Shown in pieces: positions 2,956 through 47,741 of a stretch of DNA of 47,741 bases. The position numbers were made by a program, and so were the translations under genes. The notes beneath the pieces are model-generated. The model worked only from the letters and a program-made list of their open reading frames with translations, was not told the DNA's origin and did not search any database. Source of the stretch: Candidatus Gastranaerophilales bacterium (lineage in GTDB: Bacteria; Cyanobacteriota; Vampirovibrionia; Gastranaerophilales; Gastranaerophilaceae); NCBI GenBank assembly GCA_944324915.1, contig CALUYD010000012.1:1-47741 (forward strand). Reading direction: 5' to 3'. The number at the start of each line of letters is the position of its first letter. Within the stretch, counting starts at the first letter, position 1.

Positions 2956-3312
2956 ATGATGAAATCGTTCATAGATAAAGATTATATCGCTAAGAAGATA
3001 AGGCTTGAAAGAAAAAAAGCTAATCTTACTCAATTAGAATTAGCAGAAAAAGTCGGTATAAGCGCCAAACAATTATCAAGAATAGAAATTGGCGAGTTTA
3101 TGCCATCATTGATAACTTTTTTAAAAATAATTAATGTATTAAAAATTGATATTGAAAATTTTGGTGTAATTGTAAAAAATAAAGAAAATATTTTATTGAA
3201 GAATTTGCTTGAGATTATATATTCTTCTGATGATAATCAATTGCAAATGTATTTAGATGTTATAAATGCAATAATTAAAAATAATAAAAATAAAAATTTG
3301 CCTAGATTTTAG
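2956..3312 (+). CDS. XRE-family helix-turn-helix regulator
   Basis: 118 residues. Residues 11-66 form an HTH_3 domain: IAKKIRLERKKANLTQLELAEKV, then the recognition helix ISAKQLSRIEIGEFMPS and the following helix TFLKIINVLKI. The C-terminal 50 residues are Lys/Asn-rich and end in a predicted helix with NQLQMYLDVINAI. The second XRE protein in the window (46597-46956) has a closely matching tail (NELNCYLESLKA), so the two look like members of one local regulator family. It is divergent from the prepilin-like gene, with 188 bases between, and precedes the acetyltransferase at 3364 by 51 bases in the same direction. Likely a repressor of itself and a neighbour; target not shown. AAGG lies 6 bases before the ATG. 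Confidence 0.85.
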   Translation: MMKSFIDKDYIAKKIRLERKKANLTQLELAEKVGISAKQLSRIEIGEFMPSLITFLKIINVLKIDIENFGVIVKNKENILLKNLLEIIYSSDDNQLQMYLDVINAIIKNNKNKNLPRF

Positions 3313-3363
3313 TGATTTTGTTGTAAACTTTTATATATAAATAAAGGTGTTTTAGGAGTTTTC

Positions 3364-3915
3364 ATGCAAGAATTTCAAAAAATGATAAACAGTGAAAAAT
3401 ATTATGCCATGGATAGTGAACTTGTTAAGATTAGAGATTATGCCAGAAGTACATTTATAAAATTCAATGAAGAACATGATGAAAAGAAAAGATTTGAAAT
3501 TTTAAAAGGCATTTTAGGTAAAATTGGCGAAAATACTTATGTAACGCCAAGTTTATTTTGTGATTACGGTTGCAATTTAGAATTAGGTAAAAATGTTTAT
3601 CTTAATGCAAATTGCATAGTTTTGGATTGTGCAAAGGTTGAAATTGGCGATAATACCTTTATAGGTCCTAATTGTCAATTTTATACTCCAATTCATCCTA
3701 TGGATTATAAAACAAGAAACACTTTTCTTGAATGGACAAAACCTATAACCGTAGGTAAAAATTGTTGGCTTGGCGGAAGTGTTATAGTTCTTCCCGGAGT
3801 AAAAATAGGTGATGGTTGTGTAATTGGTGCGGGCTCTGTTGTTACAAAAGATATACCTGATAATTCTGTTGCAGTGGGCAATCCTGCAAAAGTTATCAGA
3901 AAAATTGAACAATAA
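3364..3915 (+). CDS. Maltose/galactoside O-acetyltransferase-like enzyme (LbH fold)
   Basis: 183 residues, the usual length of the Maa/LacA/NodL group. The N-terminus (MINSEKYYAMDSEL) matches the short capping domain; from about residue 60 there are hexapeptide repeats (GENTYV, GKNVYLN, GDNTFIGPN, GKNCWLGGSVIVLPGV, GDGCVIGAGSVVTKDI). The likely catalytic His is in TPIHPMD. The enzyme would move an acetyl group from acetyl-CoA to a sugar hydroxyl in the cytoplasm. TAGGAG precedes the ATG. It ends three bases before the convergent FkbM gene. A second member of the family is at 39267-39899. The true acceptor sugar cannot be read from sequence; the setting among envelope genes suggests glycan decoration. 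Confidence 0.88.
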   Translation: MQEFQKMINSEKYYAMDSELVKIRDYARSTFIKFNEEHDEKKRFEILKGILGKIGENTYVTPSLFCDYGCNLELGKNVYLNANCIVLDCAKVEIGDNTFIGPNCQFYTPIHPMDYKTRNTFLEWTKPITVGKNCWLGGSVIVLPGVKIGDGCVIGAGSVVTKDIPDNSVAVGNPAKVIRKIEQ

Positions 3916-3918
3916 TTA

Positions 3919-5043
3919 TTATTCAATTAATTCGTTTGGAATTGCGTATAATACAGATTCGAAAAGATTATAACTATAATGTTCAAAATAAAAAGTGTAG
4001 TTTTCTTTTTTTAATTGTTCATATAAATAAAGTGGAATTTCTACAAAATCAGATAAACTATGATAAATTGAGATTGCTAATTGGGGTCTGTCTGATAAGA
4101 TTGTTTTTTGTGCGCCAATAAGTGCGGGCATTTCGGAGCCTTCTATGTCCATTTTGATAAAATCAATTTTTTTGATATTTTTTTCTTTTTTAAAATCATC
4201 AATTGTTGTTGTATTGATGGTAGTTAGTGTTTCGTTTCTTTTTTGTTCTTGAATTTCTTTTGTTCCGACTATTCTTGAAGCGGATTTTGATAATGTATTT
4301 TCATAAAAACCTATGGTTGTTTTTTCATTCCACAAACCATAAGGAACTATTTGTACAAAATTTTCATCTTTTATTAATTTATCGCAATAATCGTCTTTGA
4401 ATTTTTCATACATAGGTTCAAACGCATAGAGTGTTTTTAGGTTTTTAAAATGTCTTCTGAAAGCCAGCGATTGTATTCCGTTGCAAAAACCGCCGTCTAC
4501 AATTGTTTCTATTTTGTCTTTATTGATGTGTTCTAAATATTGTGCACTATAATTTCTGATAGGCGCATGTTTAGATATGCCGTATTTTTCTTGTGCATAT
4601 TTTTCAATTTCATCATAACACCCTTTTCTGTGTGTATTCCAAATCAGATTGTATCTATCTTTATCCTCATTGTGCTTAAATATTTTTTGAACTTCTTTTT
4701 GTTTTTCAACATAAGGAATTGTTCTTATGTAATATTCTGTTGGTTTTGAAGTGAAAATATATTTTATACCTAAAAATTCGAAGATATAAGCTGTTTCATG
4801 GAGTGCATTTCTTACCGTAATAACAACCATATCAACTTCATTAAGATAATTTTTAATATCTTTCAGTTTAATAATTGGTTTATCACACCATAAACCTTCT
4901 TTTGCTTTATCAATAAAAAATTTAACATTTATATCGGGTCTATTTTCGTCAATATATTTTTTTATTTTTTGGGCAACAGTACCTGCTCCATACATTGCTA
5001 TATTTGCATTTTTGTCAATTTTATTGATAAATTTTTCAATCAT
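3919..5043 (-). CDS. FkbM-family SAM methyltransferase with N-terminal Rossmann-like domain
   Basis: 374 residues; GAGGAG precedes the ATG. Residues 10-100 form a nucleotide-binding Rossmann-like unit beginning IAMYGAGTVAQKI, of the kind attached to many glycan-modifying enzymes. Residues 178-360 are an FkbM methyltransferase: SAM-binding motif I IVDGGFCNGIQS (181-192), acidic strand AFEP (207-210), and the signature DFIKMDIEGSE (294-304). It would methylate a hydroxyl of a sugar or other small acceptor. Convergent with the acetyltransferase gene (3 bases between stops), and divergent from the membrane acyltransferase at 5203, consistent with a glycan-decoration locus. Acceptor unknown. No odd residues in the motif. 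Confidence 0.87.
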   Translation of the reverse strand: MIEKFINKIDKNANIAMYGAGTVAQKIKKYIDENRPDINVKFFIDKAKEGLWCDKPIIKLKDIKNYLNEVDMVVITVRNALHETAYIFEFLGIKYIFTSKPTEYYIRTIPYVEKQKEVQKIFKHNEDKDRYNLIWNTHRKGCYDEIEKYAQEKYGISKHAPIRNYSAQYLEHINKDKIETIVDGGFCNGIQSLAFRRHFKNLKTLYAFEPMYEKFKDDYCDKLIKDENFVQIVPYGLWNEKTTIGFYENTLSKSASRIVGTKEIQEQKRNETLTTINTTTIDDFKKEKNIKKIDFIKMDIEGSEMPALIGAQKTILSDRPQLAISIYHSLSDFVEIPLYLYEQLKKENYTFYFEHYSYNLFESVLYAIPNELIE

Positions 5044-5090
5044 ATAAACTCCTCTATTATTGTGAAAATGATAACATGCTTTTTTATGTA

Positions 5091-5110
5091 TGTAAAATTT
5101 AGAGTTTACA
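5091..5110. promoter_or_regulatory. Inverted repeat TGTAAA-N8-TTTACA in a divergent intergenic region
   Basis: Lies midway between the divergent FkbM (start 5043) and acyltransferase (start 5203) genes. Placement suggests an operator serving both; no dedicated regulator is adjacent. Short arms, so chance is possible. Confidence 0.3.
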
Positions 5111-5202
5111 TTTGTTCTTTATATTTTTATTAAATATAATATTTATGTGTTTATGCTTATTTAGATATTTAAAAGCATTAAAAAATTGGGAGAACTAGCA
5201 AC

Positions 5203-6336
5203 ATGGGACTTTCTCAACTTTTTAGTAAAGAAGTGGTTAACAAGGGCAGACAGCCTGCTTTTGACTTGTGTAAAACAATTTGTATAATATTAATGATTTT
5301 ATGCCATGTATTTTATGTAATAAAATACACATCTGTGGCATCTTTAAACCCTACATACATAGCTCATAATTTAGTAAGATTATTAGGCGCTCAATTTTTT
5401 ATGTTCAGTATGGGTATGGGGTTGGCTTATTCTCGAAATAGCAATGCAAAATGTTGCTTGAGAAGGGGTCTTATATTGTTATTTACGGGATATTTATTGA
5501 ATTTCTTAAGAGAAATTCTTCCTTGGATGATAACAGGAAGTTACCCTATGTTTGCAAGCATAATGACCTATGATAAATTTTTAATGCTTTTAAGTTGCGA
5601 CATATTGCAGTTTGCGGGTTTGGCATTTTTATATTTTGCTCTTGCAAAACATTTTAAATGGTCTAATTTAACTGTGTTTATTATTACATTGTTTATCACT
5701 GTTATAGGTGCATTTTGTACGAATGAATTTATGGTTAAATTAACTCCTGATAATTTTTATTATTCGTTTGTGGGCTTGTTAATTCCTATTAAAAACTTTA
5801 CTACATCTGATTATGTTTGTTTTTCTTTCAGTAATTGGATTATTTATCCTGTTGCAGGCTGGCTTTTTGGAAAAATATTAAAACGTTGTTGTAATTTGGA
5901 TAAATTTTACCTTTATTTGTTGGGAATTTCAGTACCTGTGTTTTTATTAGCTTGGGCTGCTTTTGATGCTGTTGGTAAAAATATGTGGCTGATTTTGATG
6001 AATCCTGTTGTATATCATCAACAAAACCCTATAATATTAGCTGTATATATGAATATTATCGCAATAGCAATCAGTTTAGCTCATTTATGTTCTAATTATT
6101 TTGTTAAGTTTAAATTTTGGAATATAATCAAACATTTGAGCTCAGAGCTTCCTACTCTATATATTGTGTCTTGGGTTATTATAGGCTGGATTGGAGCTTG
6201 GCTAAAATATAATAAAAAATTTATAACTAAAGATTTCGATAACGTATTTTTTGTTTTTGTCGGCGTTGTTTTGGTTTCTGAAATATACATTTATTTTAAA
6301 AATAAATGCTCCAAAAAAATATCAAAAGCAGAATAA
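5203..6336 (+). CDS. Polytopic membrane acyltransferase (DUF1624 / acyltransferase-3-like)
   Basis: 377 residues with about ten hydrophobic segments. The N-terminus RQPAFDLCKTICIILMILCHVF carries the R-x3-FD-x-K-x9-M-x2-H pattern found in the heparan-alpha-glucosaminide acetyltransferase-like (DUF1624) and acyltransferase-3 groups, in which the His in the first membrane helix is catalytic. Such enzymes carry acyl groups across the inner membrane onto envelope sugars or lipids. The ATG follows GGGAGAACTAGCAAC. The gene ends two bases before the stop of the convergent CorC-like gene. A second membrane acyltransferase, of the OafA/WecH kind, is at 44375-45457. Substrate unknown. Confidence 0.75.
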   Translation: MGLSQLFSKEVVNKGRQPAFDLCKTICIILMILCHVFYVIKYTSVASLNPTYIAHNLVRLLGAQFFMFSMGMGLAYSRNSNAKCCLRRGLILLFTGYLLNFLREILPWMITGSYPMFASIMTYDKFLMLLSCDILQFAGLAFLYFALAKHFKWSNLTVFIITLFITVIGAFCTNEFMVKLTPDNFYYSFVGLLIPIKNFTTSDYVCFSFSNWIIYPVAGWLFGKILKRCCNLDKFYLYLLGISVPVFLLAWAAFDAVGKNMWLILMNPVVYHQQNPIILAVYMNIIAIAISLAHLCSNYFVKFKFWNIIKHLSSELPTLYIVSWVIIGWIGAWLKYNKKFITKDFDNVFFVFVGVVLVSEIYIYFKNKCSKKISKAE

Positions 6337-6338
6337 TT

Positions 6339-7649
6339 TTACTCTTGAGTTTTTTCTTCTGTTTTTTCAACAAGGATTTTTTTAATACGTCTATCTTTAA
6401 GTTCTATTACTCTTAATTTAAGGTTTTCGATTTGAACTTCGTCATTAACTCTTGCTAAACGGCATAAAAGTTTTTGAACAAGCCCCGCTATTGTTTCAAC
6501 GTCTTCATCTTCTTTGTGAGTTAAATTAAAATATTCAAAGAAATCTTCAATTCTATATAAACCATTTACGATATATTTGTTGTCATTTACTTCTTTTATA
6601 TCGTTTTCTTCATCATCGAATTCATCTTGAACGGAACCTAAAACTTCTTCTAGAATGTCTTCTAGGGTAACTATTCCTGAAACTCCGCCAAATTCATCAA
6701 TTACGATAGCAATTTCAGTTTTATTTTTCTTAAATTCTTCAAGAAGATTATCTGTTGTCATTGTTTCAGGAACAAATAAAGGCTTTCTTAGAACGTCTTT
6801 TATTTCTACTTTTTGATTTCTTAATTGGCAAGAATATAAATCTTTTACATGTAAAATCCCTACAATATTATCAAGTTTTTCGCTATACACAGGGTATCTT
6901 GTATATTGATTTTCTAGAGCGATTTTTGCATATTCTTCATAACTTATGTCAATTGGAAGTGAAACAATGTTACATCTTGGAACCATTACTTGTTTTGCTG
7001 TTAAGTCGGTAAATTTGAGGGTGTTTTTTAGAATAAAACTTTCTGTTTTGTTTAAAATTCCGCCTTTAAAACTTTCTTCAATAATCATATCAAGTTCTTC
7101 TTCAGTATGAACGGAATGATGTTGTTGAGCAGGTGATATGTTAAATAATTTCAACATCCAATTACCAAAACCATTTAAAAGGAAGATAAACGGATTTAAA
7201 ATATTTGCAACCATAATAAGCGGTTTTGTTATTATTAGGGTTGTTTTTTCGCTGAATTGTAAAGCTATTGATTTTGGCATTAATTCGCCTATTACAACGT
7301 GAGCAAAAGTTACAAGTACAAAAGCTAAAATAGTTGCAACAGAATGTGTCGCAAATGAGCTTGAAACATAAGGCAAAAAGTCAAATAGAGGGTGAATTAA
7401 TTTAGCTAGCGTTGCTTCACCAACCCAACCAAGACCAATGCTTGCGATAGTAATTCCAAGTTGAGTTGCTGCTATGTATCTATCAAGCGATGATAGTGCT
7501 TTTAGGGCTAAATTTGCAGTTTTATTTCCTTCGTTAGCTAATTGTTGAATTCTTGTTTGGCGCACACTCACAAGTGCAAATTCTGAAGCTACGAAAAATG
7601 CGTTTGCAAAAAGCAAAAATAATATAACAAACAAGTTAAATATAATCAT
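6339..7649 (-). CDS. CorC/CNNM-type integral membrane protein (DUF21-CBS-CorC_HlyC)
   Basis: 436 residues, normal for the 'hemolysin family' of divalent-cation transporters. Residues 1-190 hold a DUF21 domain with four hydrophobic segments and the typical words FFVASEFALVSVRQTR and GLGWVGEATL. A pair of CBS domains follows (VMVPRCNIVSLPID... YSEKLDNIVGILHVKDL...), and the C-terminal 80 residues are a CorC_HlyC domain (EFGGVSGIVTLEDILEEVLG). Known relatives export Mg2+ or related cations; the old hemolysin name is not evidence of toxicity. AGAGGG precedes the ATG. Stands alone, convergent with the acyltransferase upstream on the map. Confidence 0.92.
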   Translation of the reverse strand: MIIFNLFVILFLLFANAFFVASEFALVSVRQTRIQQLANEGNKTANLALKALSSLDRYIAATQLGITIASIGLGWVGEATLAKLIHPLFDFLPYVSSSFATHSVATILAFVLVTFAHVVIGELMPKSIALQFSEKTTLIITKPLIMVANILNPFIFLLNGFGNWMLKLFNISPAQQHHSVHTEEELDMIIEESFKGGILNKTESFILKNTLKFTDLTAKQVMVPRCNIVSLPIDISYEEYAKIALENQYTRYPVYSEKLDNIVGILHVKDLYSCQLRNQKVEIKDVLRKPLFVPETMTTDNLLEEFKKNKTEIAIVIDEFGGVSGIVTLEDILEEVLGSVQDEFDDEENDIKEVNDNKYIVNGLYRIEDFFEYFNLTHKEDEDVETIAGLVQKLLCRLARVNDEVQIENLKLRVIELKDRRIKKILVEKTEEKTQE

Positions 7650-7706
7650 AAGCCCTCTTAATTCAAATTTTGTCGTTGTTCTTTATTATACAACATATTT
7701 TTTAAA

Positions 7707-9251
7707 TTAGGACTTTTTGCTTTTTTTATTCGTTTTTAAGATGTATAAAAGAGGAATTACGCAAACACATAAAAGAGCAAGAACCAAGAATGCATCAAAA
7801 AAAGAAGCCAATCTTGCTTGTTGGAGTAATTCTTTATATAATGTGCCGTTTGCTTTTTTGAGTGCTGTATATGATGAATAATGAATTAAAAATTTATTTT
7901 TTAACATTAATAGTTTATATTGAAAAATGCTATTATGAGGAGTTAGGTTTGCAACAAGATAGTTTTGATGAACTTGTGAAACTCTTGCGATGAATGTTGC
8001 TGAAATAGATGTTGCAATTGCTGTAATTATATTTTTAAATAGAGCATGAAGTGCTGCAGCGTCTGCGTTTTTAGATGACGGTAATGTTTGAAAAGATAGT
8101 GCAGTAATTGGAACAAAAGCAGTCGGAACACCAATACATAAAAGTAAGTTTGGAAGAATAATGCTCTCCATTGATGATGTTGTATTTATTTGAGTGAGCA
8201 TTAAAATAGAGCCTGCCATAATTAAAAGCCCTGTTGTAGCTAAAATTCTGCTTTCTACGTATTTTGAAATTTCGCCTACTATAATTAAGCCAAACAAGCA
8301 AACTATTGCTCTTGGAAACATTGTTAAACCGGACATAGATGGGCTATAACCCAATAAACTTTGTACAAACATCGGAACTAAAAGCAATGTTGAATATAAC
8401 ATTACATTTATAAATGAGCTTGCTATTGTTCCAAAAAGAAAATTTCTGTCTTTAAAAACCCTTATATCAATAACAGGGTATTTATATTCAAGCTCCCAAA
8501 CATAAAATAATACAAAAGAAAAAATGCAAATACCGCTTAGCCAGCATATCCAAGTTGTATCAAACCAATTGTATTGTTGACCTTTATCTAATACAACTTG
8601 CATACATCCCATTGCAACTACTATTGAGCTAAATCCGATATAGTCAAATTTTTTGTTATATTTAAGTTTTTGGGGCTTATCGTCAGCTACAAAAATTTTA
8701 ACTAAGATGACCGATAAAATACATAAAGGTATATTTATTATAAAAATCCATTGCCAAGAATAATTATCGGTTAAATAACCTCCCATAAATGGACCTGCAA
8801 GCGGTGAAAACATAGCAGCAACTCCAAAAAGCCCCATTGCAACACCTCTTTGCTCAGGCGGAAAAACTTCCAATAATACCGCTTGGCATAATGGCAAAAT
8901 ACATCCGCTTCCGATACCTTGGACTATTCTTGCCATAATTAAACTTTGAAGATTTGGAGCCAAAAGACATAAAAGACAACCAAGACAAAAAACTATTATA
9001 CTCCAATTCATTAGTAATTTTTTGCCTATTGTTCTAACTAAATAACCTGTTACAGGAAGCATTAAACCGCCTGATATGATATAACAAGTAATTACGGTAT
9101 TTGTTTCATATTGTGTAGCGCCGTAAAACCCTGCAATATGAGGTTGGCTTACGTTTGTGGCAGATGACGCTGCAAGAGCTAAAAATGCAGGCAAAAGAAC
9201 CGCCATAGCCACAATGTATGGATTATATTTTTTTTGTTCGACTTCTTCCAT
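7707..9251 (-). CDS. emrB: EmrB/QacA-type MFS drug:proton antiporter (DHA2)
   Basis: 514 residues with 14 hydrophobic segments, as expected for the DHA2 family. Motifs include the TM1 region with NVSQPHIAGFYGA, motif A-like GYLVRTIGKK, the R-x2-QGIGSG segment (motif B) and the motif C region GVAAMFSPLAGPFMGGYLTD. It starts one base after the stop of the EmrA-like gene and is the last gene of the marR-emrA-emrB unit. It would pump amphipathic compounds from the inner membrane into the EmrA/TolC conduit, driven by proton influx. The symbol marks family resemblance; substrate unknown. Confidence 0.9.
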   Translation of the reverse strand: MEEVEQKKYNPYIVAMAVLLPAFLALAASSATNVSQPHIAGFYGATQYETNTVITCYIISGGLMLPVTGYLVRTIGKKLLMNWSIIVFCLGCLLCLLAPNLQSLIMARIVQGIGSGCILPLCQAVLLEVFPPEQRGVAMGLFGVAAMFSPLAGPFMGGYLTDNYSWQWIFIINIPLCILSVILVKIFVADDKPQKLKYNKKFDYIGFSSIVVAMGCMQVVLDKGQQYNWFDTTWICWLSGICIFSFVLFYVWELEYKYPVIDIRVFKDRNFLFGTIASSFINVMLYSTLLLVPMFVQSLLGYSPSMSGLTMFPRAIVCLFGLIIVGEISKYVESRILATTGLLIMAGSILMLTQINTTSSMESIILPNLLLCIGVPTAFVPITALSFQTLPSSKNADAAALHALFKNIITAIATSISATFIARVSQVHQNYLVANLTPHNSIFQYKLLMLKNKFLIHYSSYTALKKANGTLYKELLQQARLASFFDAFLVLALLCVCVIPLLYILKTNKKSKKS

Positions 9252-41689: not shown

Positions 41690-44380
41690 ATGATTTTTAG
41701 ATTCTTGGTTATTTTTTTAATTTTTTTTGTAGGTTCAGCAAGTGCAAATAATATAAATGTAAAAACTTTTGATGAGCTTATTTCTTCTGCTTCTCAAAGT
41801 ATTAGTGGTGATAGTATAACAATTTTGGATAATTTATATTCAGATAGTACCATTGGCGGCACTTTTTCACTAATGGATCTTACTTTTTTAGGACAAAATT
41901 TCAACATTGATGGAGGAGATAATTTTGGCGGATTTTTATTAAATGAAGGTGGTTCATTTGATAAAGTCAGAATGATTAATTGTGTGGGTCAAGATTATAA
42001 TACTTATGTGATTGCAGGGGCTATTTATAATTCATCAAATCAAACAAACATTACAAATTCGGCTTTTAGCAATAATTATGCTGATGCTCAAGGTAATAAT
42101 TTTGCAGTTGCAGGGGCTTTATATAATGAGAATGGCGGAAATGTTTCTCTAAATGCAACTCTTTTTGATAATAATTATACTAACGGAGCGAGTGCTCAAG
42201 GCGGCGCTGTCGGAAATGTGGGCTCAAATACGATTATCAATATTTATGATAGTGTATTTAATAATAATTATGCTGATGGCTCTGTTTTGTCTTATGGAGG
42301 TGCAATTTATAATAATAACGGAGCAATTATGAATATTAAAGATAGCCTGTTTTATAATAATCATTCTTTAGCTAAAAGCAATGGTGTTTATTTATACGGT
42401 GGGAGTATTTATAATACAGGTGATATGACAATTGATAACAGTTACTTTTCAAATAATTATATAGAAGGAAATCTTGATTCTTTCGCTTATGGCGGCGCAA
42501 TTCATAATAATTCAAACCTTACAATTACAAATACTACTTTTGATAATAACTATATTACCTCTGATATTGATACTTCAGGTGGTGCTATATTTAATTATGC
42601 AGACGGTAGTGTAACAATAGAAAACTCTCTTTTTAAAAACAACTATTTAAATGCCCAAAATAGTAGAGGTGGTGCAATTGGCAATCAAGGCACAATGTCT
42701 ATAATAAATTCAACTTTTGTTGGCAACAAAGACACAGATGGTTTGAATGATATATATAATTTTGGTATTTTAAACTTTGATGGCGATGGTACAACTAATA
42801 TTTTAGACGGTATAAGGGGTACAGGTAATATAAATAAAAATGATAACGGTACTTTGAATTTGGGCGGAAATAATTCAAGATATACAGGGGCTTTTTCGTT
42901 TTATGACGGCACAATAAATCTTTTAGCAAATTCAACATATTTTAACGTTAAAACGACTGATTTTGAAAACGGTGTTAATTTTAATATGCAAAATGGTCAG
43001 ATAGATAATGTTGATTTTGAAATAACAACTTTACACGGACAATCAAATATTTATCCTGATGTTGATTTTAATAATAATACGATGGATACAATATCAGCTT
43101 CTTATTTAACAGGTGGAGGTACAATACTTGTACCTGATTTAGCAACAATTGGCGTGCCTGAGGCTGAATTTATTACCATACCTTTTGCAAATTCGATATT
43201 AAAAAATTCGGTTGTATATAATTCAAAAATTATAAAAACGCCTATTTATGATTATCTTTCTTCTTATGATATCCAAAACGGTAATTTTGATTTTTCAAGA
43301 ACAGGTTTTAATAGCGGTATATTAGCACCCATGGTTTCAGCTCAATTAGCAGGATATTTACTTCAGATTGATACATTTAATAATGTTTTTTCTAATTTAG
43401 ATATGGTTATGATTTTAAATAAAGATAAAAAAACCGCCTTGGATTTTAAAGATAAAATCGCATACAATGGGCAAAATCAGTATATTTATTCTCCACTATC
43501 AATTCCTGAAGCAAACAATGGAATTTGGTATAAACCTTATGCTACTTTTTCTTCTGTTCCTTTAAAAAATGGTCCTGATGTTTCAAATGTAGGCTATGGC
43601 GGTATATTAGGTGCGGAAAGCGGCTTAGTCAATCTTAAAAGAGGTTGGAGAGGCTTGTATGGCGGATATGGCTCTTACAATGGCTCTCATCAATCTTATG
43701 ACGGTATCGGAATATATAATAACGGTGGTTTATTGGGCTTGAGCGGTGCTTTATATAAAAATAACTTTTTTAGTTTGTGGAGCGCAAACGTTGGTGCAAA
43801 TTCAGCTAAAGCTCACACTAGTTTTGGAAATGATGATTTTAATATGTTGTATACAGGCATTGCTCAAAAATCAGGGTTTAATTTAGGTTTGTTTAATGAT
43901 AAATTTATTATTCAACCTAATTTAATGCTATCTTATAGTTTTGTTAATACTTTTGATTTTACTAATTCTTCAGATGTTCAAATTGATGCAAAACCTTTAA
44001 ATGTTTTACATATAGAACCTCAAATTAAATTAATAGGTAATTTTGGGGATTTATTACAACCTTATCTTGCTGTGTCTGTTGCTTGGAATATTATGGATGA
44101 TGCAAGATTTTATGCTAATGATGTTATGTTGCCTGAATTATCAATAAAACCTTATGTTAGATATGGTGCAGGTATTCAAAAACGCTGGGGCGATAATTTG
44201 ACTGCATTTTTTCAAACTTATATAACAAACGGCGGAAGAAATGGCGTAGGCTTGCAATTAGGTTTGAGATGGTCGATTGGAAAAGAAACTAAAAGAAACG
44301 TAAATTTTAAGGCAGGCAACATTCCTGATAAGCCCAAAACCGTTATTGAATTATTTAATAAAGTTGCTTCTGATTTATAA
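41690..44380 (+). CDS. Beta-helix autotransporter
   Basis: 896 residues. Signal peptide MIFRFLVIFLIFFVGSASA. Residues 30-380 are a passenger of pectin-lyase-like repeats in the style of chlamydial Pmp proteins: recurring GGAIYN, N-[ST]-x-F-x-NNY and 'I-x-N-[ST]' units about 30 residues apart. Residues 400-600 continue beta-rich. The last 290 residues are an autotransporter beta-barrel (NNGIWYKPYATFSSVPLKNG; GGYGSYNGSHQSYDG; YAGVGLQLGLRWSI-type final strand). The barrel does not end the chain: about 30 residues follow, containing R-N-V-N-F-K-A-G (869-876) and a charged tail, so the usual C-terminal aromatic is missing. The passenger would be displayed outside. No ribosome site precedes the ATG. 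The gene overlaps the convergent acyltransferase by 6 bases. Confidence 0.9.
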   Translation: MIFRFLVIFLIFFVGSASANNINVKTFDELISSASQSISGDSITILDNLYSDSTIGGTFSLMDLTFLGQNFNIDGGDNFGGFLLNEGGSFDKVRMINCVGQDYNTYVIAGAIYNSSNQTNITNSAFSNNYADAQGNNFAVAGALYNENGGNVSLNATLFDNNYTNGASAQGGAVGNVGSNTIINIYDSVFNNNYADGSVLSYGGAIYNNNGAIMNIKDSLFYNNHSLAKSNGVYLYGGSIYNTGDMTIDNSYFSNNYIEGNLDSFAYGGAIHNNSNLTITNTTFDNNYITSDIDTSGGAIFNYADGSVTIENSLFKNNYLNAQNSRGGAIGNQGTMSIINSTFVGNKDTDGLNDIYNFGILNFDGDGTTNILDGIRGTGNINKNDNGTLNLGGNNSRYTGAFSFYDGTINLLANSTYFNVKTTDFENGVNFNMQNGQIDNVDFEITTLHGQSNIYPDVDFNNNTMDTISASYLTGGGTILVPDLATIGVPEAEFITIPFANSILKNSVVYNSKIIKTPIYDYLSSYDIQNGNFDFSRTGFNSGILAPMVSAQLAGYLLQIDTFNNVFSNLDMVMILNKDKKTALDFKDKIAYNGQNQYIYSPLSIPEANNGIWYKPYATFSSVPLKNGPDVSNVGYGGILGAESGLVNLKRGWRGLYGGYGSYNGSHQSYDGIGIYNNGGLLGLSGALYKNNFFSLWSANVGANSAKAHTSFGNDDFNMLYTGIAQKSGFNLGLFNDKFIIQPNLMLSYSFVNTFDFTNSSDVQIDAKPLNVLHIEPQIKLIGNFGDLLQPYLAVSVAWNIMDDARFYANDVMLPELSIKPYVRYGAGIQKRWGDNLTAFFQTYITNGGRNGVGLQLGLRWSIGKETKRNVNFKAGNIPDKPKTVIELFNKVASDL

Positions 44381-45457
44381 ATCTTTAATTAAGGGTAATT
44401 TGCTTTTTATATATTTTAAAACAACGCCTGAATATGTTGATATTATCATTGTTAAAACAAAATAAAGGTAAGTGTTTTGAATTGGATTGTAAATCCAATA
44501 AATGTCATGTATATTTCTTTCAGACATTGGAATACCATTTATTTTAAATATTATAGCAGTCATTATATACATTACAAAAAGATGGTTTGCCATAATATGA
44601 TATGTGTTTTCGCCTATTACTTTTATAAATTTTATATCTTTTAAATATTCGTATGTAACATGTATAAAAAATAATGAAAACCAAATTCCTGTAATACTTG
44701 TTAAAATTGGAACTATAATTTGACTGTCAAATCTTGCCCAAACAAGAACATAGCTTAAACCTATACCATGCTCGGGGTCAAAATCTCTGTTAAAATGCCA
44801 TAAAATTGCTTGAATACAAACCACCCAAGCTAAAATTTTAGGGGTAAAAATATTATATTTTCCTTCGATTTTTGTTGTATAAAAGTGTCCTAAATATACA
44901 AAAAACAACGAAAATAATGTTCTTACAATTACTAGAAATAAAGGTGTTAATTCAAAACTTTTTGAGAGTGGAATAGCACTTAGACCCATTATAGCGTATA
45001 TTATAAATTTTAGTTTTTCATTCTTTTCTCTTAACATACGTTGAAAATATAGAAAAGCAATCATAGTTATAAATAATTGAACTACAAACCACATAGGGCA
45101 TGAAAGGTCAAATTGGTGTCCGTTTAAAAAAGGAGTTATAAAGAAATTTTTTAAATTTAATTCCATACCCCAAAATTTACCTGTCAATTTGTCGATTATA
45201 ATAGTAATTATGCAATAAAAAGCAGAATATATGAAATATAAAACTAGTAAACTTTTAATTCTTCTTTTAATATATTGATATACATTATCTAAATATTTAT
45301 CTTTAAAAAGCATTCCTGAAATAAAGAAGAATAAAGACAATTGAAAAGAATATGGCGGAAACATATCAAAAAAGCGAAATTCCAGGTGTCCTGAGACAAC
45401 TAAAATAATTGCTAATGCTTTTAAAATGTTTATTTTATCTGAAAAAATTTTATCCAT
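44375..45457 (-). CDS. Acyltransferase-3 family membrane protein (OafA/WecH-like)
   Basis: 360 residues from the ATG at 45457; a GTG six bases upstream is part of the GAGGTG ribosome site. About ten hydrophobic segments. N-terminus DKINILKALAIILVVSGHLEF carries the family's R/K-x10-H pattern with the catalytic His of helix 1; QLSLFFFISGMLFKDKYLD follows as the second motif. Transfers acyl groups (often O-acetyl) to envelope polysaccharide on the periplasmic side. Convergent with, and overlapping by 6 bases, the autotransporter. The acceptor is unknown. Confidence 0.88.
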   Translation of the reverse strand: MDKIFSDKINILKALAIILVVSGHLEFRFFDMFPPYSFQLSLFFFISGMLFKDKYLDNVYQYIKRRIKSLLVLYFIYSAFYCIITIIIDKLTGKFWGMELNLKNFFITPFLNGHQFDLSCPMWFVVQLFITMIAFLYFQRMLREKNEKLKFIIYAIMGLSAIPLSKSFELTPLFLVIVRTLFSLFFVYLGHFYTTKIEGKYNIFTPKILAWVVCIQAILWHFNRDFDPEHGIGLSYVLVWARFDSQIIVPILTSITGIWFSLFFIHVTYEYLKDIKFIKVIGENTYHIMANHLFVMYIMTAIIFKINGIPMSERNIHDIYWIYNPIQNTYLYFVLTMIISTYSGVVLKYIKSKLPLIKDL

Positions 45458-45503
45458 ATTCACCTCAAAATAAAGTTTAACATAAAATCTTGGTTATGGA
45501 ATG

Positions 45504-46493
45504 TTAATTTTTATGAGTTTTTCTATATAATAAACCGTTTAGAGAGTTATATTCAGGTGACATTTTTTGATTATTTATAAAATCTTCTGAAAGATTTGGG
45601 AATAATTTTTTTGCTTTGTTTTCCCAAAATTCAACTTCGGATTTTAGCGCAAGTATTTCATTTGTGTTTGAATAATATGATTTCATATCGCCACTTGAAC
45701 ATGTTGGAATTAGAAAATCTTGCCTGAATTCTTCAAAACTTATTTCAGATTCTTCAAGCACTCTTAGTCTTGAATTTTCGTCAATCTTAATTTTTGGTTG
45801 ATATGAATAGATAAATGGGTAAAATTCCAGCAGTTGAGATTTTACTTCTTCAAGCTCCATATCTTCATCACTTAGAGCCGAATCTTCTTGAATCATTTTG
45901 TTGAATTTATCAACTGCTCCATTGCTACATAGCGAACATTGAATTTGTGCGCTATGTTCTAATTCATGAAATAGGCAGCTTGCTATTATTGCCATTTTTT
46001 CTTCTTTTGTTGCTATTCTTGTATTCGGATTTTCTTTAAGCGTCATTTGGGTTTCATCTTTATTTTGGCAAGCTACATAGCTAAAAAATATTTCAAAATC
46101 ATCTTCTGAACCCTTCCAGAGTTTTTTCGAATTGGAGCTCACTACAAAATCGCCATCAGTAAAAGATGTTGGGATTTGAATTTCATTTATTGTAAAATCA
46201 TATCCTGTGCGAAAATCTTCATCGCTGAATTTGATTTTGGGTTTAATTATTTCAATTCCGCCATAATTTTGAGATAAAACATCTTTTTGTTGTTCAAATA
46301 TTTTGTTGTATAGCTCTCTTATTTCGCTTCTTGAAATATGGCTTGGATTATTTGATATAGATGATACAAAAGTATCTTTTTTGATTTTATTTGCACAGAA
46401 ATTTATTGTGCTAAAGTTGTTGTTTGTTGTTGTTATGTTTTTATTTTTAGGCTTGTTGATTTGTATTGCTTGATTTATAAAATTTATTTTCAT
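45504..46493 (-). CDS. Putative zinc metallopeptidase (HExxH) of unknown family
   Basis: 329 residues, no signal peptide. A zinc-binding HExxH (CLFHELEH, H176-E177-H180) sits in a predicted helix; NEILALKSE (278-286) about 100 residues on is the natural source of a third Glu ligand, as in gluzincins. Residues 1-45 are Asn/Thr/Lys-rich and include FSTINFCAN, a relative of the FKAG word seen in other proteins here. Cys residues cluster around 183-190. I do not recognise the family. No ribosome site precedes the ATG. A protease acting inside the cell or exported by an unknown route are both possible; activity is inferred from the motif alone. Confidence 0.7.
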   Translation of the reverse strand: MKINFINQAIQINKPKNKNITTTNNNFSTINFCANKIKKDTFVSSISNNPSHISRSEIRELYNKIFEQQKDVLSQNYGGIEIIKPKIKFSDEDFRTGYDFTINEIQIPTSFTDGDFVVSSNSKKLWKGSEDDFEIFFSYVACQNKDETQMTLKENPNTRIATKEEKMAIIASCLFHELEHSAQIQCSLCSNGAVDKFNKMIQEDSALSDEDMELEEVKSQLLEFYPFIYSYQPKIKIDENSRLRVLEESEISFEEFRQDFLIPTCSSGDMKSYYSNTNEILALKSEVEFWENKAKKLFPNLSEDFINNQKMSPEYNSLNGLLYRKTHKN

Positions 46494-46553
46494 ATTTTTA
46501 TAAAACAGGTGAATTTATATAGTTGCTAAGATTGGAATGCATGACTTAATTAC

Positions 46554-46583
46554 ATACTAAAAAAGCACCCAATCGGGTGCTTT
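46554..46583. repeat. 30-base direct repeat, left copy (contains a terminator)
   Basis: Identical over 30 bases to 47553-47582. The core GCACCC-AATC-GGGTGC hairpin extends here to a 15-bp perfect stem (46556-46570 with 46575-46589) with a T-run, so it is also the terminator of the XRE gene at 46597-46956. Confidence 0.9.
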
Positions 46584-46589
46584 TTTAGT
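46556..46589. terminator. Terminator of the XRE gene
   Basis: 15-bp perfect stem around loop AATC, with six A/T at the base on both strands; able to work in both directions (XRE gene and, less directly, the HExxH gene). Confidence 0.9.
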
Positions 46590-46596
46590 TGAATAA

Positions 46597-46956
46597 TTAT
46601 TTTATGTTTAGCGCTTTTTGAGTAGCTTTTAGTGATTCTAAATAGCAGTTGAGTTCATTGTCGTCTTTTGCGGAATTTAGGATTTGTAAAGCCTTTGCCA
46701 TAATAGGGTTTTCATTAATTTTGATTTGTTCTAAATCAAAACCGGCTTGTTCTAAAGTTAATCCTAGTGCCTTTAGTAGCTTGTTTAAAGTTGTATATGT
46801 GGGAAAATATTTGCCGTTTTCAATTCGACATAAGTGTTTGTCATCAATATTTGCTTTTTCTGCTAACGCTTGTTGCGTTAAGCCTTTTGCTTTTCTTAGA
46901 GCCTTTAATCTTTCTCCGAAAGTGATGTTTTGTTTATTTTGTTTCTTGTTGCTCAT
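46597..46956 (-). CDS. XRE-family helix-turn-helix regulator
   Basis: 119 residues; GAGGG precedes the ATG. HTH_3 domain at residues 12-68: FGERLKALRKAKGLTQQALAEKA, recognition helix DDKHLCRIENGKYFPT, then LNKLLKALGLTLEQ. The tail NELNCYLESLKATQKAL parallels that of the XRE protein at 2956-3312. It is divergent from the secreted PD-(D/E)XK-like gene, and the palindrome TGTTGCAACA lies between them. It probably controls that gene and itself. Both genes are enclosed by the 30-base direct repeat. Confidence 0.9.
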   Translation of the reverse strand: MSNKKQNKQNITFGERLKALRKAKGLTQQALAEKANIDDKHLCRIENGKYFPTYTTLNKLLKALGLTLEQAGFDLEQIKINENPIMAKALQILNSAKDDNELNCYLESLKATQKALNIK

Positions 46957-46994
46957 AGCACCCTCTTTATTTTTTATTTTGTACTATTTTTATC

Positions 46995-47004
46995 TGTTGC
47001 AACA
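46995..47004. promoter_or_regulatory. Candidate operator TGTTGCAACA
   Basis: Perfect 10-bp palindrome 39 bases upstream of the XRE start, in the divergent intergenic region; a further CAACA half-site follows at once. Suited to the XRE protein; not tested. Confidence 0.4.
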
Positions 47005-47037
47005 CAACAAGAACGGCAATTTGAAATGATTAAATTA

Positions 47038-47066
47038 TTGTCGTAAATAACACTTTATGTTAAACT
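47038..47066 (+). promoter_or_regulatory. Promoter predicted to give a leaderless transcript
   Basis: TTGTCG, 17-base spacer, TAAACT (weak -10), then seven bases to the ATG at 47074. No ribosome site, as for bioD and ruvC. Confidence 0.35.
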
Positions 47067-47073
47067 AATCAAC

Positions 47074-47550
47074 ATGATGAAAGTTAGTGCAATGATTAAT
47101 TCAGCAATTGTTTATATTTTGTTATTGCCAATGGCGACACCTTTTGAATATAAAATTTGTAATTTGGGCTGGAAACACATATCTCATAAACACAATGAAG
47201 CAAGCTATCAAAATGCTTGGTGTTCTTTAAATGGTGGTATTGCGGAATTTAAAAATAAAGATTTTACAAGGGTGGATTGTCTCACAAATACTCATGCGAT
47301 AGAGTTTGATTTTGCAGATAAATGGGCGCAAAGTTTAGGTCAAGCACTGCATTATAGCGTTATGACAGGCAAGAAACCCAAGGTTATATTAATTCTTGAT
47401 GAGCCTTATAAACAAATGATTTATTTTAAAAGAGTTCAAAAAATAGGCGAAGAGTATAAAATTGATACAGAATATGTTACAAATGATATTTTAAAGTTGA
47501 ATAAAGAGCAAAAATGCAGTTATTCTAAGTGTAAATGTCATAATAAATAA
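47074..47550 (+). CDS. Secreted PD-(D/E)XK-nuclease-like protein
   Basis: 158 residues. The first 25 residues are hydrophobic (SAIVYILLLPMATPFEYK), read as a signal peptide. The body matches a widespread family of small exported proteins with the words AWCSLNGGIAEF, TRVDCLT, AIEFDFADKW and SLGQALHYSVMTGKKP. The acidic set E58, D68, E77-x-D79 with K83 has the spacing of a PD-(D/E)XK nuclease core. The C-terminal part includes C-x6-C-x3-C-x-C. I infer a nuclease fold; whether it cuts DNA, and where, is unknown. It is divergent from an XRE gene, both within the 30-base direct repeat, and a Fic gene begins just downstream. Confidence 0.7.
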   Translation: MMKVSAMINSAIVYILLLPMATPFEYKICNLGWKHISHKHNEASYQNAWCSLNGGIAEFKNKDFTRVDCLTNTHAIEFDFADKWAQSLGQALHYSVMTGKKPKVILILDEPYKQMIYFKRVQKIGEEYKIDTEYVTNDILKLNKEQKCSYSKCKCHNK

Positions 47551-47552
47551 CG

Positions 47553-47582
47553 ATACTAAAAAAGCACCCAATCGGGTGCTTT
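47553..47582. repeat. 30-base direct repeat, right copy
   Basis: Identical over 30 bases to 46554-46583, 999 bases apart. The hairpin stem here is only 9 bp because the sequence changes after GGGTGCTTT, so as a terminator it is weaker. Similarity continues loosely past the repeat (AGTTgAATAAT against AGTTaAATAAT). Confidence 0.9.
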
Positions 47583-47670
47583 AAAGTTAAATAATATGGA
47601 CAGATATTGTTGAAATTTAAAGACAAAATAATTAACAATTTTATGATAAAATAGTTGTATAGAGGTAATT

Positions 47671-47741
47671 ATGACTTTAGAAAACAAATTAGGAATAACT
47701 GATTCAACAGAGCTTTTTAGAGTAGAAGAAAAAATAAGTAA
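47671..47741 (+). CDS. Fic-family protein, 5' fragment
   Basis: Starts at an ATG preceded by GAGGTAATT and runs off the window. The first 23 residues MTLENKLGITDSTELFRVEE (then KIS) match the N-terminal segment of small Fic proteins, which start with NKLGIT-x-s-x-eLa-x-eEe-x-isk. Fic enzymes add AMP or similar groups to proteins, often as the toxin of a toxin-antitoxin pair or as a filamentation factor. The catalytic HPFxxGNGR motif is outside the window, so activity cannot be judged. Confidence 0.7.
   Translation, partial: MTLENKLGITDSTELFRVEEKIS

Follow-up and report, generated by a model that had tools for sequence, protein, structure and literature searches.

The two identical hairpin repeats that enclose an XRE/nuclease-like gene pair in a Gastranaerophilales genome are best explained as copies of the trailer and intrinsic terminator of the tRNA-Asp(GTC) gene beside L21-L27. 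We consider it probable that these copies, here called R, are displaced trailer/terminators left by serial inserts at the tRNA-Asp 3' end, and that they now separate small gene units; the site would be one where sets of a few genes are acquired and lost again and again. Integration hotspots anchored at tRNA genes are a well-known class, and the locus is a small integrase-less case of it. Searches with PF00589 and PF07508 found no integrase near tRNA-Asp in 28 genomes, and the locus is therefore classed as a degenerate tRNA-Asp integration hotspot without a resident integrase and not as an active element. Read this way, the odd hairpin repeat documents a series of insertions at a single tRNA gene of an uncultured gut lineage, and it shows that terminators, when copied together with tRNA trailers, can serve as module boundaries.

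The window, meaning the whole 47,741-nt stretch analysed, is contig C12 of its genome (G000) and ends at 47741, 159 nt past the right repeat. Its sister genome, G008 (Candidatus Gastranaerophilales bacterium BRZ_SF__bin21), has ~94% identity to the window over this block. The features of the window discussed below are:

44375-45463, minus strand: acyltransferase gene (Acyl_transf_3), the left anchor common to the window and G008.
45504-46493, minus strand: 329-aa gene with a HELEH motif (zincin-like); its counterpart in the G008 bin is on a different contig, immediately beside a single R.
46554-46583, no strand assigned: R1, the left 30-nt repeat, a hairpin terminator; diverged similarity continues to ~46597, at the XRE stop codon.
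46597-46956, minus strand: XRE-family repressor, 119 aa (HTH_19, E 3e-15).
47074-47550, plus strand: 158-aa protein with an N-terminal hydrophobic segment and a PD-(D/E)XK-like nuclease fold by structure prediction.
47553-47582, no strand assigned: R2, the right 30-nt repeat, beginning 2 nt past the nuclease stop codon.
47583-47599, minus strand: rest of the displaced tRNA-Asp trailer, reading CCATATTATTTAAC on the minus strand and leading into the hairpin.
47671-47741, plus strand: start of fic (NmFic-like adenylyltransferase), which runs on into contig C9 through a 77-nt overlap.

The initial annotation, made from the window alone, had described two identical 30-base copies 999 bases apart, each with a GCACCC/GGGTGC hairpin and together enclosing only the XRE gene and the divergent PD-(D/E)XK-like gene. 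All of this held. R1 and R2 match at 30/30 nt with a spacing of 999 nt, far above chance: 50 Markov shuffles gave no exact repeat longer than 14 nt around the nuclease gene, and R1/R2 exceeds in length every other direct repeat within 6 kb anywhere in the window. R1 sits beyond the XRE stop codon and R2 beyond that of the 158-aa gene. GCACCC-N4-GGGTGC occurs in only two places in the 1.8-Mb window genome, R1 and R2, and the hairpin has three copies in G008; a genome-wide repeat family was rejected on these counts. The weaker similarity that had been noted past the repeats is also real, as the G008 counterparts of R1 and R2 form a 42-nt repeat (cross-matches 90%, 20 nt exact), giving R a length of ~42-44 nt in the sister-species form.

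The last 77 nt of C12 (window 47665-47741) are exactly the first 77 nt of C9 (G000:C9:1-77), inside the start of fic; such an exact overlap suggests that the assembly graph branches here. Strain variation inside fic may be present at this overlap. C9 continues through fic, a terminator, tRNA-Asp(GTC), L27 and L21, and the overlap thus puts fic, tRNA-Asp and L27 beside R2 in the window genome. The single contig G008:C23 carries L21, L27, tRNA-Asp, fic, R2, nuclease, XRE and R1. The combined order from the window, C9 and G008 is tRNA-Asp, terminator, fic, R2, nuclease-like gene, XRE and R1, followed in the window by the 329-aa gene. As in islands anchored at tRNA genes, the inserted material therefore lies directly downstream of a tRNA 3' end, both in G008:C23 and across the C12/C9 overlap.

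The repeats also derive from the end of that tRNA gene. In the direction leading away from the tRNA, R2 reads CCATATTATTTAACTTTAAAGCACCC, or in a fuller stretch CCATATTATTTAACTTTAAAGCACCCGATTGGGTGCTTTTTTAGTATC, and the relative G021 has CCATATTATTTATTAAAGCACCGTAAGGTGCTTTTTAAGTATC at its tRNA-Asp acceptor end. When R copies were compared with 109 terminator hairpins from the loci retrieved, the G021 tRNA-Asp trailer was the best match both of R2 and of R3, a single R copy on another contig of the G008 bin. The tRNA-Asp trailer of G025 ranked second for R2 and third for R3; the G025 contig begins inside the tRNA, and its hairpin hence carried a non-tRNA label in the ranking. R1 consists of the distal part of the trailer and the hairpin only; it lacks the CCAT portion through which R2 and R3 connect to the tRNA. 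The 26-nt tRNA-Asp end proper was absent from the window. A candidate for a further remnant of the tRNA-Asp end, a 3-mismatch match at 45344 inside the acyltransferase gene, was at chance level. The window alone could not reveal R as a tRNA-Asp trailer/terminator, since the tRNA itself is on contig C9.

The initial annotation had proposed looking for an empty site with one repeat, and such a junction exists. Contig C145 of the G008 bin carries one R copy (R3) beside the upstream region of the 329-aa gene, and this region is 99% identical over 308 nt to window 46246-46553. The genes on the two sides of R3 start divergently, and R3 carries a tRNA-Asp end: an exact 18-nt piece, TTCCCGCCATATTATTTA, equals the tRNA-Asp 3' end plus trailer, for which 0.01 matches are expected by chance even allowing up to 3 mismatches. 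Since the single R is joined to the 329-aa gene, R3 is a one-repeat junction lacking the XRE-nuclease pair. On its far side, past the tRNA-derived end, C145 has two cytosine-5 methyltransferase genes and a gene for a NO VEIN-type protein; with this methyltransferase operon instead of fic beyond R, the site is empty for the XRE-nuclease pair but otherwise represents a different state of the locus. C145 is a short contig in a bin that is 87% complete with about 200 contigs, and since it resembles the window genome more closely than it does the rest of its bin it may derive from another strain.

The neighbours of R are exchanged among genomes. In G008:C23, R1 is bordered on its outer side by an 825-aa glycine-rich pilin-like gene, and the sequence becomes homologous to the window again only at the acyltransferase; beyond the acyltransferase the sequence was different in every relative examined. 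The gene beside R is thus the 329-aa gene, the 825-aa pilin-like gene or the XRE-nuclease pair depending on the genome. The 329-aa gene belongs to the swapped segment, and its protein had no clear family match. Variable content together with an empty site in close relatives is a further property of tRNA islands found here. The R1 copy of the window has the same outer flank as R3 but the inner flank of the G008 R1, and it therefore looks like a recombination product of two R copies.

These arrangements suggest how the locus may have formed. Elements would enter at the tRNA-Asp 3' end and push the old trailer and terminator outward, so that R copies now separate successive small inserts in the order tRNA-Asp, new terminator, fic, R2, nuclease/XRE, R1 and 329-aa gene. 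Insertion may have proceeded by site-specific integration in trans or by an integrase since lost. Later exchange could have occurred through R x R recombination over ~44 nt of homology, with the window R1 as an apparent hybrid of the R1 and R3 types. The locus shares with islands and prophages at tRNA 3' ends the tRNA anchor, repeats from the tRNA 3' end or trailer, variable cargo and serial insertion. It differs in its very small insert (~1 kb), in a repeat that is mostly trailer and terminator, and in that no integrase was found.

The initial annotation had treated R as the boundary of a module, possibly as the hairpin ends of a transposable cassette. The boundary itself is supported, as neighbours change at R and a one-repeat junction exists; R as the module's own hairpin ends is not. 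The 158-aa protein has relatives in 32/58 related genomes, and at the 13 other nuclease-gene loci that we examined closely, where an XRE-type gene was the divergent neighbour in several, neither R nor any R-like repeat flanked the gene. An enclosing repeat above chance was found among the 13 only in G002, and that one is a tRNA-Leu repeat. R therefore belongs to the site and not to the module. It is unlikely, then, that the XRE and nuclease genes form a small mobile cassette, of integron or att-circle type, that brings R along for recombination and moves by R x R. The abutment of R to both stop codons, the single-R empty junction and the duplication of the whole R unit would fit such a cassette, but in addition to the 13 loci without R there was no recombinase in or near the module, and R matches the tRNA-Asp trailer in relatives that lack the module at that place. 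Integron gene-cassette arrays similarly have small gene units with hairpin repeats between them and abutting stop codons; the window locus differs from them in that paired attC core sites are absent, each unit has two divergent genes, and R is specific to the tRNA-Asp site. An integron attC, with paired RYYYAAC and GTTRRRY, was rejected because R by eye has GTTAAAT on one side only. A DDE transposon or MITE, with terminal inverted repeats and a short target duplication, was likewise rejected, as the boundaries are long direct repeats that are internally palindromic.

R1 and R2 could also be two ordinary terminators, one per gene, that became alike by gene conversion, with the neighbour changes reflecting general rearrangement. 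Both copies lie just past stop codons, synteny beside the acyltransferase breaks too in every relative, and the hairpin resembles terminators of unrelated bacteria, with look-alikes present in unrelated genomes. These look-alikes are half of what the initial annotation had expected of a common terminator; the other half, many copies and no empty site, did not appear, with two copies here and an empty site present. We regard two ordinary terminators as improbable. The 42-nt similarity reaches outside the stem-loop, R3 carries a tRNA-Asp end and has the start of a divergent gene on either side, and only two copies occur in 1.8 Mb. The terminator scan, with its T-run test, accepted R2 on the minus strand only, where a G+C-rich stem is followed by a T run. 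This is the strand readable from tRNA-Asp, opposite to the nuclease gene, and R2 would serve transcripts from the tRNA side better than those of the nuclease gene. At R1, judged by sequence, T/A runs flank both sides. An assembly or binning artefact of metagenome-derived genomes is hardly credible, for although the window contig stops shortly after R2 and C145 sits in a bin of about 200 contigs, the module and its two R copies also share a single contig in the separate assembly G008, where they are 94% identical and show substitutions of their own.

Under the preferred origin by serial insertion at tRNA-Asp, the XRE/nuclease pair is cargo. Searches of Pfam, NCBIfam, PHROGs and PADLOC returned no model matching the 158-aa protein, comparison with PDB by sequence gave nothing meaningful, Foldseek alone gave no significant match, and a search of plasmids found none. 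Its AF2 model (pLDDT 92) has the element order alpha-beta-beta-beta-alpha-beta of the PD-(D/E)XK core fold, and the best structural neighbours were EndoMS/NucS-type repair nucleases (Z 8.4), with XisH and CdiA-CT DNases lower. The 158-aa protein shares with these nucleases the predicted core and conserved acidic residues. It differs in being short and in having an N-terminal hydrophobic segment, which suggests that it may be exported, and conserved cysteines, which point the same way. E58, D68, E77, D79, K83 and two cysteines are invariant in the family; as candidates for the catalytic D...(D/E)xK residues of the superfamily, these have the lysine outside its canonical position. From fold and context, the pair most likely encodes an element-borne, XRE-controlled exported nuclease directed against incoming DNA, in superinfection exclusion or defence.

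Three related viral contigs (L180, L181 and L182) contain Mu-like transposase, ATPase and GemA genes together with a divergent HTH/nuclease pair. At ~3500-8400 the pair, which comes after the early region, lies directly before a slot of variable restriction-type genes: an SNF2 helicase, an MmeI-type enzyme or an OLD-like ATPase, the last assigned by sequence and not by family search. L180 and L181 have an HTH gene unlike that of L182, and the nuclease is nearly the same in all three. No match to a 38-nt R pattern was found in the viral contigs. The window pair resembles this phage cargo in its divergent arrangement, which on the phages stands beside restriction-type genes after the early region, and differs in having no phage gene alongside. 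Tentatively, the divergent XRE/exported PD-(D/E)XK pair may be a module for superinfection exclusion or defence, as yet undescribed, which moves from Mu-like phages to Gastranaerophilales tRNA attachment sites and back and marks the edge of a defence-cargo slot. The observations point to a widespread, unnamed family of predicted exported nuclease-like proteins carried by phages and tRNA-anchored inserts.

Duplicated tRNA ends were also found elsewhere among the relatives. tRNA-end fragments were weakly enriched at nuclease loci (3/29 vs 0/48 control loci, p 0.05), and whole tRNA genes near nuclease loci were not (4/29 vs 5/19 and 3/18 in controls). In G002 (L039, G002:C41) a 58-nt repeat ending in the tRNA-Leu 3' end occurs three times (3205-3262, 3351-3408 and 5928-5985); the second and third copies bracket fic-nuclease-XRE, and the contig starts with an integrase C-terminal fragment. 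Duplicated tRNA ends adjoin the nuclease gene in G015 (tRNA-Glu) and G032 (tRNA-Val). At tRNA-Asp itself, different content follows the gene in most relatives, and in G011, G017 and G004 a second tRNA-Asp end with terminator encloses 250-380 nt. These segments (L143, L165 and L147, respectively) have no obvious gene, and those of G011 and G017 are clearly homologous. In L164 (G010:C10), a tRNA-Asp-end-like copy, TTCCCGCCATATTT, lies ~685 nt past tRNA-Asp, and the open segment before it may be a recombinase remnant.
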